A stretch of DNA of 7,994 nt from Candidatus Delongbacteria bacterium. GTDB lineage: Bacteria; Delongbacteria; UBA4055. The position numbers were made by a program, and so were the translations under genes. Every line of letters begins with the position of its first letter. Position 1 is the first letter of the stretch. Positions 1-6,067 of the stretch are shown one piece after another. The stretch spans positions 1 through 7,994 of the forward strand of contig JAFGUL010000232.1 in NCBI GenBank assembly GCA_016938535.1. Reading direction: 5' to 3'. The notes below the pieces were generated by a model. It made no database searches and was not told where the DNA came from. It was given only the letters and a program-made list of their open reading frames with translations.

Positions 1-629
1 ACTAATGCTTCTTCGCTCAATTGAGCGAGCACTACTACAATATCCGATTTTTCGTTAAGCTCTTTCAAGACAGGTCTGAGTTCGTCAAAAGCCGTTCCGA
101 TAATTATATCTTTCTCATTTAGGGCATCCATTCTGAAAAGATACTTGAAAGTGTTTATATAATTTACTCCTGTTACACCGACCTTGATGCCGTCTCTGGT
201 CTCAATTATTTTGTATTTTTCGATATTCATATCTTTGTCATCGAACATCAGATTAGCTGATACAAAGGGCAGTTTTCCGTAAAGATTCTTTTTGAAATAA
301 TTCATTCCGTTTATAAATTCCTGATGACCGATACACACCGCATCATAACCCATTTCAGGATAAACCGCAGACACGATGTCATCATCTGAAGGAGTAGGTC
401 TTCTGCTGAGCAGCCCCCCCGAATCTATAAATACTATGTTGTCGTGAACTGTTTTGAGGCTGTCAAAAACTGTTTTTCTTTCGGCAAGACCGCCGAGTCT
501 TTCAGCCGGTCAGCCGCAGTCCCTGAAATAACCGTTATTGCTGCCGCTGAAAACAACTGCTAAGGATTCAGAGTGGATCTTTATGCTCAATAAAAAAACG
601 ATAATGATAAATATATTCTTTCCTGCCAT
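1..629 (-). CDS. Candidate selenoprotein: exported metallophosphatase/5'-nucleotidase-like protein, CGU motif (3' end outside window)
   Basis: The frame opens at ATG 629-627, seven bases after a strong SD (GGAGGAG, 643-637), and stays open to the window edge for 209 codons except for one TGA at 512-510 (codon 40). Residues 1-24 form a signal peptide (Lys-4, hydrophobic 6-16, likely cleavage near 20-24), so the protein should act outside the cytoplasm. The mature start reads VVFSGSNNGYFRDCG-(UGA)-P, followed by RLGGLAER. From memory, a branch of metallophosphatase-like proteins has CGC then GGLARR here, so the UGA sits where Cys is expected. Later segments fit the same fold: VFIDSGG (about 67-73), YDAVCIGHQEF (about 96-106) and IKVGVTGV (about 149-156). 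The usual phosphatase ligands (DxH, GNHE) are altered, which suggests a redox or binding role rather than phosphoesterase activity. Selenocysteine is inferred from Cys alignment, continued family similarity past the UGA and a hairpin behind it. The alternative is a nonsense mutation or base error. Confidence 0.72.
481..509 (-). promoter_or_regulatory. Possible bacterial SECIS hairpin just after the UGA
   Basis: Two exclusive folds are visible directly downstream of the UGA. Fold A pairs UCGGC (496-492) with GCCGA (485-481) around the loop GGUCUU. The loop begins 18 nt after the UGA and starts with GG, which fits the bacterial SECIS rule as I recall it (guanine in the first loop positions, loop roughly 16-37 nt from UGA). 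Fold B pairs CGGC with GCCG and AAGAC with GUCUU (nine pairs, a UGA bulge at 504-502, loop UCGGCG). Fold B is probably more stable but puts its loop only 13 nt away. The region is also coding, so pairing may be partly accidental. Confidence 0.5.
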
Positions 630-667
630 ACCGGTACTCCTCCGCCGCTTAACATTTAAGTTTATGG

Positions 668-696
668 AATATATATAAATCTGCTTGTTAAGTCAA
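668..696 (-). promoter_or_regulatory. Sigma70-type promoter for the minus-strand candidate selenoprotein gene
   Basis: On the minus strand, TTGACT (696-691) is followed after exactly 17 nt by TATATT (673-668). Both hexamers match the consensus at five of six positions. Transcription would start near 660, giving a leader of about 30 nt that carries the SD at 643-637. A working promoter and SD argue that the UGA-containing gene is expressed rather than decayed. Confidence 0.6.
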
Positions 697-791: not shown

Positions 792-3518
792 ATGCTTACT
801 TTATTGCAGGAAAAACTTAAAAAAATACCTGTTATAACTCTAAAGATCCCCGTTCCTGCTCTGGGATGCGGAGTTTTAGGGATGTCTTTTGCGAAAATGA
901 ACATAAATATGGGGAAATACGCTTCTCAGCTTCTCAAAAGTCTTGAGTATCGAGGCTATGACTCCACCGGAGCAGCGATTCAGGACGATAAAGGAAATAT
1001 AACTCTAAAAAAAGATGTTGGTGCTCCGTCAGAACTTGTGAACACTCTCGGCATTACCAAAATGAAGGGTAAAATATTTTGCGGTCAGGTCAGATGGGCT
1101 ACTTTTGGCTCGGTGAACAAGGTGAATGCCCAGCCGCACGAAGTTAAGTGTAAAAAGCACCTGTATGGTGCGCATAACGGAAATATCACGAACACAGGCT
1201 CGCTAAAAGAGTTTCTGACGAATCAGGGTCATAAGGTTCTCAGCGACAATGACGGAGAAATGCTTGTTCATACAGTGGAGCACTATTTTGATATGTATCT
1301 TGAAAAACACGAAGAAGAACTCCACAGCGACAGAGAGCTCAGAAGAGAATGTATGAAAGAGGCTATCCTGAGCGCTTCCGAAAGGGTTGTGGGATCATAC
1401 GCGGCGGTAATTGTTGATCCTGTTACCGAAATTTCTTATGCCATTAAGGCCGGAAGCAGCCTTTACGCCGGAAAAGGAACGATCGACGGCAACAATTATA
1501 TACTTCTATCATCAGATCTTACAGCTATATTAAAATTCACCAAAAAAGTTATAGACCTTAAAGAGGGTACATTCATAGAATATACAAGCGACGAATATCA
1601 GGTTTACAGCTTCAAGGACATAAGATGGAAGTATAAGGACGGAACGGTAAAAGAGATCAAAAAAGGGCAGAAGATAGATGTGCCGGTTTCAAGAAGCAAG
1701 CTCAGAGCAGAGGATACAGAACTTAATGCACCTTTTAAATTCTTCATGCATCAGGAGATCTTCAATCAGGTTGACAGTTCAAAAAAACTTATCGCTTTCT
1801 TCAACAGGGGCAGTGAAAGTACAAAGAGGATCAAGTCAATACTGGATAAAAATAAACTGATCGATTTCGTAAAACAAAGCTCTAAGAACATTTACAGGGA
1901 AGATACGCCGGAAGGGCAGAGGCAGTTGTTTGAAAAATTCAGGTCATCGAAAGAATACAAGAAGATACTCGATACTGTAAATAAGGATTTTTCAGAACTT
2001 TCAGACAGCATTAACAAGAAAGAGTTTATAAATACAGAATTTTTCTCTACTTACTCAAACATTTTTCTCGATATCATATCAGGTAATGAATATGTGAAAA
2101 ACAATATGCTTACCGCAAAAATACTTGATATCGGAGCTGAAATAAGAGAGCTCGATAAATTTCACGATCATGCAGACAGATTTGCAGAAACGATCTTCAA
2201 TGCATGGAAAGAACACAGAAGCATATACACCATCTCATGCGGTACATCTTATAACGCGACAAAAACTGCGGCAATATTTTTCAATGAGATTGCAGGCATT
2301 AAATTCAGTCCGATACTTCCCGGAAACTTCAGGGGACAGTATTCCAACTCAATTCGTGAGGGAGATGTGATCGTCGGGGTCAGCCAGAGCGGGGAGACTA
2401 AAGACCTGATAGATATCTTTAATGATATAGAATCTACCGGTGTTGAAGTTAAAAAGATCACCATTGTCAACAACGAAAATTCAACCCTGGCTCAGGAGAA
2501 AAGTGATTTCTATCTGCCTATTAAGTGCGGTCCGGAGATAGCTGTTCCCGCCACAAAAAGCTATATGAACCAGGTTCTTCTGTTCTATTACCTGGCCATA
2601 AAAGTAGGTGAATTCAAAATGGATCAGCTTAAAGGTTCAAAGGATATTGAAATAAAACGAAAAGAACTTGAAAGAAGGAAAGAAACACTCAATTACATTC
2701 CTGATCTTATAGAGGAGACTTTGAGGACTACCGAGTCGCAGACGGACAAAATGGCCGATTCATTATTTATGCAGCCCAGCATTCACATTCTGGCCACTAA
2801 GATCAGTTCTGTAGCTGAAGAGGGAGCACTTAAGATAAGAGAAACAGTTCTTAATCATACTCAGGGCATTGAAGGATCAGAATTCAAGCACGGTCCCAAT
2901 ACGATCCTGGGATTTAACACTATTTTCGGCACGGAAGATCTCGAATACTTCATAAAGTACAACAAAGACCTTATCGAGTATGCCATGGTCAGAGCTCATA
3001 AAGAAAAACTCAGCGAAAAAGAGACAACGAAACTTATATCCGACCTCAGCTCTTATATATTCGAGCCTGTAAAACCCTTCAATATTCTTCCCAAAGCCAA
3101 AAAAATATTTGAGGACGCTATTAAAAAATTCAATTTCGTTGAGAACCTTGATACTAATTACCCGCTAATATTTCTTACAGGACCTGAACCGAGAGATGTG
3201 AATCTGACGATCTCACAGATAAACACCCATAAGATCAGAGGTGCAAACACTTATCTTATCGCAGAAGCCAATGATGATCTTGTCAGCAACTGCCTTTCGG
3301 GACAGAGCGGAAACAGGCATTACGAATTTGTTTATGTTAAACTACCTAAAACTGACGATACGCTGCTTTCTACATTCTCGAGCATAGTGGTTTTACAGTC
3401 TCTTGCACTTAAGATGAGCGTTAAGAAAATGAAATATCTTAACAAGCTTCACATTCCTCTACATGGAGTACATCCTGATGTTCCGAAAAATGTATCTAAA
3501 AGTATAACTGTTGATTAA
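792..3518 (+). CDS. Enlarged GlmS-like glutamine amidotransferase/sugar isomerase
   Basis: GlmS makes glucosamine-6-phosphate from fructose-6-phosphate and glutamine in the cytoplasm. Here a class II glutaminase domain (about 26-275) has Cys-26 as the expected nucleophile, EYRGYDSTG (52-60), RWAT (101-104), the oxyanion-hole pair Asn-129/Gly-130 and Asp-154. Two SIS domains follow: SCGTSY (482-487) and SQSGET (531-536) in SIS1; EEGALKIRE with Glu-684, FKHGP with His-700, and terminal SKSITVD with Lys-903 in SIS2. These match E. coli Glu-488, His-504 and Lys-603, so isomerase chemistry looks intact. The protein is about 300 residues longer than the usual 600-610. Extra length lies in a 25-residue N-terminal leader, about 110 residues before SIS1 and about 75 inside SIS2. 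The ATG at 792 has GGAG at 781-784, and no start codon lies directly before Cys-26. RWATHG reads RWATFG and NAHPH reads NAQPH. It may be the cell's GlmS or a specialised paralog. Confidence 0.85.
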   Translation: MLTLLQEKLKKIPVITLKIPVPALGCGVLGMSFAKMNINMGKYASQLLKSLEYRGYDSTGAAIQDDKGNITLKKDVGAPSELVNTLGITKMKGKIFCGQVRWATFGSVNKVNAQPHEVKCKKHLYGAHNGNITNTGSLKEFLTNQGHKVLSDNDGEMLVHTVEHYFDMYLEKHEEELHSDRELRRECMKEAILSASERVVGSYAAVIVDPVTEISYAIKAGSSLYAGKGTIDGNNYILLSSDLTAILKFTKKVIDLKEGTFIEYTSDEYQVYSFKDIRWKYKDGTVKEIKKGQKIDVPVSRSKLRAEDTELNAPFKFFMHQEIFNQVDSSKKLIAFFNRGSESTKRIKSILDKNKLIDFVKQSSKNIYREDTPEGQRQLFEKFRSSKEYKKILDTVNKDFSELSDSINKKEFINTEFFSTYSNIFLDIISGNEYVKNNMLTAKILDIGAEIRELDKFHDHADRFAETIFNAWKEHRSIYTISCGTSYNATKTAAIFFNEIAGIKFSPILPGNFRGQYSNSIREGDVIVGVSQSGETKDLIDIFNDIESTGVEVKKITIVNNENSTLAQEKSDFYLPIKCGPEIAVPATKSYMNQVLLFYYLAIKVGEFKMDQLKGSKDIEIKRKELERRKETLNYIPDLIEETLRTTESQTDKMADSLFMQPSIHILATKISSVAEEGALKIRETVLNHTQGIEGSEFKHGPNTILGFNTIFGTEDLEYFIKYNKDLIEYAMVRAHKEKLSEKETTKLISDLSSYIFEPVKPFNILPKAKKIFEDAIKKFNFVENLDTNYPLIFLTGPEPRDVNLTISQINTHKIRGANTYLIAEANDDLVSNCLSGQSGNRHYEFVYVKLPKTDDTLLSTFSSIVVLQSLALKMSVKKMKYLNKLHIPLHGVHPDVPKNVSKSITVD

Positions 3519-4527: not shown

Positions 4528-4609
4528 GCTGAAGTGGTGGAAATGGTAGACACACCATCTTGAGGGGGTGGCGCCTTCGGGTGTAGGAGTTCAAGTCTCC
4601 TCTTCAGCA
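4528..4609 (+). tRNA. tRNA-Leu, anticodon GAG
   Basis: Acceptor strands GCTGAAG and CTTCAGC pair over seven bases with discriminator A (4609). The D arm contains GTGG...GGTAGACAC. The anticodon stem CCATC/GGTGG encloses loop TTGAGGG, with GAG as anticodon, reading CUC and CUU. A long variable arm (CGCC-TTCG-GGTG) marks the class II leucine type. The T arm is AGGAG-TTCAAGT-CTCCT. CCA is not encoded (CAA follows), so it must be added enzymatically. It lies directly after secG and is followed by a terminator, so it depends on the secG promoter and on processing of that transcript. Confidence 0.96.
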
Positions 4610-4610
4610 C

Positions 4611-4636
4611 AAAGGCCTTTTTTAAGGCCTTTTTTT
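4611..4636 (+). terminator. Intrinsic terminator after tRNA-Leu
   Basis: AAAGGCCTT (4611-4619) pairs with AAGGCCTTT (4624-4632) around TTTT, followed by more T to 4636. It begins two bases after the tRNA and closes the secG-tRNA unit. Confidence 0.9.
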
Positions 4637-4660
4637 ATTGTCAAAAAAAATTTAATCGTA

Positions 4661-4693
4661 TTGAATATCGTTTCTTTTTGTCGTAAATTGCAC
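4661..4693 (+). promoter_or_regulatory. phoH-hflX promoter
   Basis: TTGAAT (4661-4666), 17 nt, then TAAATT (4684-4689) followed by GCAC. This has the same hexamer spacing, the same -10 and the same GCAC as the secG promoter. With a start near 4697 the leader would be only about 20 nt and carry the SD GGGAGG at 4705-4710. Confidence 0.65.
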
Positions 4694-4714
4694 ATAAATT
4701 ATTTGGGAGGTAAA

Positions 4715-6067
4715 ATGGCAGGCAAAACATTTATACTGGACACTAATGTACTTTTACATGATTTTAACTGTCTTAAGGCTTTTGATGATAACGATATAGG
4801 CATCCCGATAACTGTACTCGAAGAACTTGACGAATTCAAGAAAGGTCATGATCAGCTCAATTTCAATGCAAGAGAGATCACAAGGCAGATTGACGAACTT
4901 TCAGGCGGAGAAAACGGAGCGCATAAAGCCCTTTTCAAAAAAGGAATATCTCTGGGTGAAGGAATGGGAAAAGTATTCGTACTTACTGATGTTAAATTCA
5001 GGGAAGGATTTAAAGATAAATTCGTTTCAGGCAAAGAAGATCATCACATACTGGCTGCCTGCTTCAATTATTCACTGGATAATCCGGAAAAAGAAGTAGT
5101 TTTTGTTACTAAAGATGTGAATTTAAGACTAAAAGCAAGAGCATTAGAGCTCAGTTCCCGTGACTATCAGATAGGGAATGTTAAAAGTGCTGATGATCTT
5201 TTCACCGGTGTTGAAACCATGGAGGATATTGACGAGAGCACTATCAATGTACTTTATTCAAAAAAGAAGATCGGGGTAGAGGAATTTAAAAAAGACCCTG
5301 ATTCTGAAGCTATTTCATTAAAGCCTAATCAGTACTTTATTCTTAAATCCAATGAAAAATCCGCTCTTGCCCGTTATGATCACTTTGAAAATATTGTAAG
5401 TCTGGTGGAACCGAAAGAGGTTTTCGGTATAAAATCAAGAAATTCCGAGCAGACTTTCGCTATCAACGCCCTTACAGATGACAGGATCAGGCTTGTAACA
5501 ATATCCGGTACAGCAGGAACAGGAAAAACGCTTCTTGCGCTTGCCGCCGCGCTCGAAAGCAGGAAAGGATATAAACAGATCTATCTGAGCAGACCGATAG
5601 TTCCGTTAAGCAACAAAGATATCGGATATCTGCCGGGTACAGCCCAAAATAAGATCGAACCCTATATGCAGCCTCTCTACGATAATCTCCAGTTCATTCA
5701 GAACAATTTCAACGAAGGTTCGGACAAGTATGAAATGATCGATGAATTACAGAAAAGAGAAAAGCTTATAATATCACCACTTGCGTACATAAGGGGCAGA
5801 ACTTTAAGTAATGTATATTTTATTGTTGATGAAGCTCAAAACCTCTCCCCTCACGAAGTTAAAACGATCGTAACGAGGGCCGGTGAAGGAACGAAAGTGG
5901 TTTTTACAGGCGATCTTTATCAGATAGATTCTCCGTACCTCGATTCTGAATCCAGCGGACTTGCCTACCTTATAGACAGACTGGAAAATCAGGAGCTGTG
6001 TGCTCATGTTACATTAAAAAAAGGCGAAAGGTCAGTTCTTTCCGAACTTGCATCCAAACTATTATAA
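4715..6067 (+). CDS. PIN-PhoH protein: nuclease-like domain fused to PhoH ATPase
   Basis: The 450-residue product has the two-domain layout of bacterial PhoH2/YlaK proteins (about 440 residues). An N-terminal PIN domain (about 4-150) shows the expected acidic ligands: Asp-9 in FILDTN, Glu-36/37 in VLEELDEF, Asp-109 in EDHH and Asp-134 in FVTKDVNLR. The PhoH ATPase domain (about 240-450) has Walker A GTAGTGKT (265-272), Walker B FIVDEAQN (369-376), FTGD (397-400) and KGERS (436-440). Mycobacterial PhoH2 is reported to be an RNA helicase and ribonuclease; cytoplasmic RNA processing is the likely role here by family. The start at 4715 is chosen because GGGAGG (4705-4710) precedes it and the protein begins in the conserved PIN strand. 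The frame is open further upstream, but that part overlaps the tRNA and terminator. hflX follows after 22 bp. I see no small antitoxin gene beside it. Confidence 0.92.
   Translation: MAGKTFILDTNVLLHDFNCLKAFDDNDIGIPITVLEELDEFKKGHDQLNFNAREITRQIDELSGGENGAHKALFKKGISLGEGMGKVFVLTDVKFREGFKDKFVSGKEDHHILAACFNYSLDNPEKEVVFVTKDVNLRLKARALELSSRDYQIGNVKSADDLFTGVETMEDIDESTINVLYSKKKIGVEEFKKDPDSEAISLKPNQYFILKSNEKSALARYDHFENIVSLVEPKEVFGIKSRNSEQTFAINALTDDRIRLVTISGTAGTGKTLLALAAALESRKGYKQIYLSRPIVPLSNKDIGYLPGTAQNKIEPYMQPLYDNLQFIQNNFNEGSDKYEMIDELQKREKLIISPLAYIRGRTLSNVYFIVDEAQNLSPHEVKTIVTRAGEGTKVVFTGDLYQIDSPYLDSESSGLAYLIDRLENQELCAHVTLKKGERSVLSELASKLL

Follow-up and report, generated by a model that had tools for sequence, protein, structure and literature searches.

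A probable selenocysteine codon in a short, heme-less UshA-like protein of Candidatus Delongbacteria and its likely role in envelope redox chemistry

Introduction

Does a single in-frame TGA mark a broken gene or one whose product incorporates selenocysteine (Sec), and, if the latter, what might that product do? The question is raised by a 7,994-nucleotide (nt) stretch of contig JAFGUL010000232.1 from a Candidatus Delongbacteria bacterium (hereafter the window), the minus strand of which, from 629 to 1, holds 209 codons of a UshA-like gene with only one stop, a TGA at 512-510 (residue 40). An earlier sequence-only reading had described precisely such a frame, split once by TGA, and proposed that it encodes an undescribed selenoprotein of an exported, metallophosphatase-like kind. 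The openness of the frame is itself unusual: a first-order Markov control yielded one stop or fewer over 209 codons in just 2 of 20,000 simulated sequences. The contig end has removed the 3' end of the gene (1..629, minus strand), placing the C-terminus outside the window, and a longest contig of 7994 bases is given in the database entry for the fragment itself (P0036); alignment with the orthologue L015 indicates that about 89 codons are absent, the orthologous proteins being 293-300 amino acids (aa) long. Judged from sequence comparisons, the UGA at 512-510 is very probably recoded as Sec, and we consider it likely that recoding and function go together in an extracytoplasmic Cys-Gly-Sec redox protein built on a disused phosphatase scaffold.

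Conservation of the UGA codon and its cysteine counterparts

Scanning a genome collection with the read-through protein recovered one relative, from a Candidatus Delongbacteria metagenome-assembled genome, which is 53% identical and has the same TGA. Across 13 Candidatus Delongbacteria genomes, the gene with one in-frame TGA is present in 10 (the in-frame stop counts of two rows also include the terminal TAG or TAA) and was not found in the remaining three (G002, G003 and G011). When the window is aligned with these 10 orthologues, the TGA (510..512, minus strand, in the motif D-C-G-U-P) occupies one and the same column in 11/11 sequences, and the protein sequence beyond it is conserved. A pseudogene or a sequencing error at 510-512 would account for the interrupted open reading frame (ORF) of the window, but the recurrence of the same codon in 10 genomes, together with the conservation downstream of it, makes this explanation scarcely credible.

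A search of a protein collection, in which the 7999 candidates sharing most words were scored, returned 62 homologues, of which 19 were read. Eight of these are full-length short proteins that contain no stop: four have CGC at the motif (P0023, P0025, P0027 and P0028) and four have CGW (P0003, P0022, P0029 and P0030). The tryptophan in the latter four probably reflects gene calls made under code 4. Cysteine also occupies the UGA column in five heme-fused homologues. Hence, alignment at residue 40 shows UGA throughout the Delongbacteria set and Cys in four short homologues, and the claim that relatives carry CGC at this place holds for half of the full-length short homologues, the other half being CGW. 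Eight further homologues, including P0031 from NCBI, begin after the UGA, as would be expected of truncated predictions; consequently, these public records lack the active-site pair.

The CGW homologues are also the observation that would favor a changed genetic code in this lineage, with UGA read as Trp or Gly, were they not probably code 4 gene calls. Such a reassignment is exceedingly improbable: TGA serves as the proper terminator of three of the orthologues (L001, L007 and L015), matches to selA, selB, selD and tRNA-Sec are present, and 11 of the 12 selD matches over the cut-off have an in-frame TGA of their own (11/11 loci read).

Selenocysteine machinery and a candidate SECIS hairpin

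The search for the Sec machinery that the sequence-only reading called for was answered at the level of the phylum. Across the 13 Delongbacteria genomes, matches over the cut-off were obtained for selA in 13/13 (controls 1/14), for selB in 11/13 (not G001 and G006; controls 2/14) and for selD in 12/13 (not G004; controls 2/14), and the tRNA-Sec model passed its threshold in 10/13. As 5/14 control genomes also pass that threshold, the tRNA-Sec model is the least specific of the four. ARAGORN, run on 12 tRNA loci, called tRNA-SeC with the anticodon TCA at four, and identified two below-threshold loci as tRNA-Ser.

A selenocysteine insertion sequence (SECIS)-type hairpin, TCGGCGGTCTTGCCGA, can be drawn at 481..496 on the minus strand, with its GGTC (491-488) starting 18 nt past the TGA; the same UGA-to-GGUC distance was measured in fdhF of E. 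coli K-12. The GGTC is invariant in the aligned sequences, and the six pairs of the hairpin can form in 11/11 of them, with two of the pairs showing G-U/G-C exchange. Codons +4 to +14 are also more constant than the rest of the gene (0.845 versus 0.605 over 10 and 66 columns, respectively, using invariant amino acids only), a value reached by 0/10,000 degeneracy-matched resamples. Longer folds and RNAalifold favor a pairing that takes in the UGA itself. We set this fold aside because it is broken in some of the sequences (three of 11 at columns 39-49, two at 37-51 and one each at three other pairs), whereas pairing of the short hairpin is possible in every sequence. Searches against Rfam detected no SECIS family in the window, only four weak matches below the gathering scores; three of these overlap the tRNA-Leu described below, one by two bases.

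Several of these results weigh against recoding and should be set beside those in its favor. The window's own genome is not among the 13 in which the machinery was counted. Control genomes pass the selB, selD and tRNA-Sec criteria at the rates given above, and ARAGORN recognized no tRNA in six of the 10 tRNA-Sec loci over the threshold. None of the six hairpin pairs shows a change on both sides among the 11 sequences, random replacement of the window's codons by synonyms yields an equally good hairpin in 4.5% of cases, and the hairpin is the minimum-energy fold of the 48-nt segment in only 5/11 sequences, not including the window; the preference of longer folds for the UGA-including pairing points in the same direction. 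Despite the contrary folds and the chance rate, a hairpin with a conserved G in its loop can form just 3' of the UGA. Taken with the conserved TGA column, the aligned Cys and the machinery in the phylum, this possible hairpin leaves the assignment of Sec to the UGA well supported.

Erosion of the dimetal site and the predicted redox function

The ligands of the dimetal center in UshA-type 5'-nucleotidases are D41, H43, D84, N116, H217, H252 and Q254. In the window and its orthologues D41 and H43 are replaced in 11/11 sequences and the remaining ligands are variable, such that the ligand set of a UshA-type 5'-nucleotidase is not preserved. More generally, His is absent from the H43 (24/24) and H117 (30/30) places in every row of the family that has letters there, and D84 is additionally lost in 4/15 Delongbacteria rows, including the window. 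With the dimetal site largely gone, the protein is most likely not a phosphatase.

The product would probably be an exported, single-domain selenoprotein of the UshA/5'-nucleotidase fold. SelB, directed by the hairpin just 3' of the UGA, would insert Sec at residue 40, and the resulting Cys38-Gly-Sec40 is predicted to sit in the loop just after the first former metal-binding motif. Such a protein would most likely act as an envelope thiol/selenol redox protein in place of a phosphatase, presumably cycling between selenenyl-sulfide and thiol/selenol states in exchange with an outside electron partner. Relatives in which the UshA-like domain is fused to a tetraheme cytochrome c or to a thioredoxin-like domain accord with this proposal. 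Once recoding is granted, we consider a redox role, argued by analogy, probable.

Two other roles for a genuine selenoprotein have to be weighed here. It could still be a metal-dependent phosphoesterase in which the Sec or Cys would either coordinate a metal or act as a regulatory switch. The fold itself fits both 5'-nucleotidases and SoxB over model residues 21-300, and several residues retained elsewhere in the family count against a redox role: among the Cys and the heme-fused forms, respectively, D84 (4/4 and 5/5), H252 (4/4 and 5/5) and, mostly, H217 (4/4 and 3/5) persist, and D41 is retained, by eye, in some Sec forms outside Delongbacteria (e.g. L095 and L100). Metal binding is therefore possible in the wider family. 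Against this stand the family-wide lack of the H43 and H117 histidines and the loss of D84 in part of the Delongbacteria set, and we regard a phosphoesterase as unlikely. Still less likely, in our assessment, is some other role, for instance the binding of metal, selenium or sulfur species with no redox cycling. In the accessible portions of the literature, the UshA-like or COG0737 selenoproteins appear as list entries only, with no stated function, which leaves room for such a role; it fits poorly with the relatives in which a cytochrome or a thioredoxin-like domain is fused on. An envelope redox protein thus remains our preferred reading, and the lost metal site together with these fusions gives a family that has so far only been listed a testable function, and the short Delongbacteria form offers a compact system for the test.

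Heme-fused and heme-less relatives

Among the other genomes searched, 24 rows outside Delongbacteria bear a TGA, and 16 loci covering 17 of these rows were fetched. In these loci, 18 genes have a motif that includes U, of the form CxU in 16, CxxU in one and SxU in one. CXXCH motifs number four in 14 of the 18 genes and three in one, and are lacking in three; heme-less Sec forms are, therefore, not confined to Delongbacteria. One locus, L101, encodes two adjacent UshA-like proteins, each with an in-frame TGA (in the contexts CPTU and SGUG) and neither with CXXCH. Cys-only versions also occur within Delongbacteria, where four loci (L030, L031, L032 and L033) encode a UshA-like protein with a CNC motif, no in-frame stop and, by eye, a lipoprotein-like character. 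In two further proteins (L087:106-2295 and L092:1462-3693), thioredoxin/glutaredoxin-like matches below the threshold, along with a membrane part, come after the UshA-like domain; by eye both are DsbD-like, and there is a weak ArsG match.

Upstream signals and genomic neighborhood

In the window, the gene is preceded by a ribosome-binding site (630..643, minus strand) comprising GGAGGAG at 643-637 and a 7-nt spacer before the ATG, in agreement with the good Shine-Dalgarno sequence noted earlier. The good promoter claimed alongside it fared less well: a candidate sigma-70-type element, TTGACT-17-TATATT (668..696, minus strand), does score 10/12 against the consensus, but four such matches occur on both strands versus 1.2 expected. 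A hydrophobic N-terminus recognized by eye suggests a signal peptide over about residues 1-22 (564..629, minus strand); it is on this that the proposed export depends, while the metallophosphatase-like fold is well supported.

In the loci of 10/10 Delongbacteria genomes, the gene is followed directly by mltG (YceG family). Upstream, glmS is found in the window and in seven of the 10 loci; of the three remaining loci, one is truncated by a contig end. The GlmS-like protein of the window (792-3518) has GATase and SIS domains and, at 908 aa, exceeds the usual size of this enzyme. The four complete neighboring genes in the window all terminate in TAA or TAG. Farther along, the listed GTG start of an ORF that we named PhoH-like by eye (4568-6067) falls within a tRNA-Leu (gag, 4528-4610), and the ORF likely begins with the ATG at 4715.

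Comparison with known families

The expectation of an undescribed selenoprotein family did not survive comparison with existing records. Zhang & Gladyshev (2008) list 'COG0737, UshA-like', with a CxU motif and 76 sequences, among previously known families, and, in the available text of that paper, set it apart from the redox-motif families (PMC2398784); the UshA-like selenoprotein is also entered in the accessible parts of reviews of 2022 and 2026 (PMC9312934 and PMC13188914). NCBIfam, too, holds a model for it, NF041198 (UshA_like_PCGU, 'UshA-like (seleno)protein'). We found no literature on selenoproteins in Delongbacteria, and none joining UshA and Sec with a multiheme cytochrome or a metallophosphatase. 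What appears to be less described is the short heme-less form in Delongbacteria along with its loss of the dimetal site.

No Pfam model matched the window fragment. Against NF041198, the fragment matches model positions 16-215 (E 1.3e-28), sharing with the family the UshA-fold domain and a Cys-Gly-Sec motif, with the UGA at the same place, ahead of a GGLAxR-like motif; the defining Cys-Gly-Sec/Cys before GG-L-A-x-R is thus present. The scores fall short of the 275-bit cut-off (99.8 for the window fragment and 107 for the full-length L015), and none of the 13 Delongbacteria genomes passes it, whereas 11/11 aligned members match at E below 1e-5. The Delongbacteria proteins, 293-300 aa in length with the motif DCGUP, correspond only to the N-terminal part of a model of 519 positions with the motif PCGU. 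The multiheme (CXXCH) C-terminal region of that model is absent from the orthologues, which end before it, and the corresponding end of the window protein is missing. By comparison, L090 scores above the cut-off (294.1 bits) and has four CXXCH motifs, and G003 has a piece with CXXCH that is matched by model positions 396-518. A second NCBIfam family, NF049981 (UshA-like (seleno)protein family 2), matches weakly over its first 90 positions only and below its 140-bit cut-off (window 31.2, L015 28.5); the motif given for it in the accessible text of PMC13188914 is CxxU, in contrast to the CxU of Delongbacteria.

The SoxB model TIGR04486 likewise stays far below its cut-off of 550 bits (window 20.7, L015 36.8). 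Relative to UshA/5'-nucleotidase and SoxB, the Delongbacteria form has had its metal and catalytic residues largely replaced, has added Cys-Gly-Sec, and is too short for their second domain. There is about an even chance, in our estimate, that UshA-like selenoproteins at large are widespread envelope oxidoreductases, in which the fold lost its metals, gained Cys-x-Cys/Sec at the old active-site loop and was wired by fusion to tetraheme cytochromes or thioredoxin-like domains, with Delongbacteria using the domain by itself, alongside some separate partner, in a conserved gene pair with the cell-wall enzyme MltG. In this comparison, the short heme-less form hints at an old phosphatase fold that has been turned into a redox protein.
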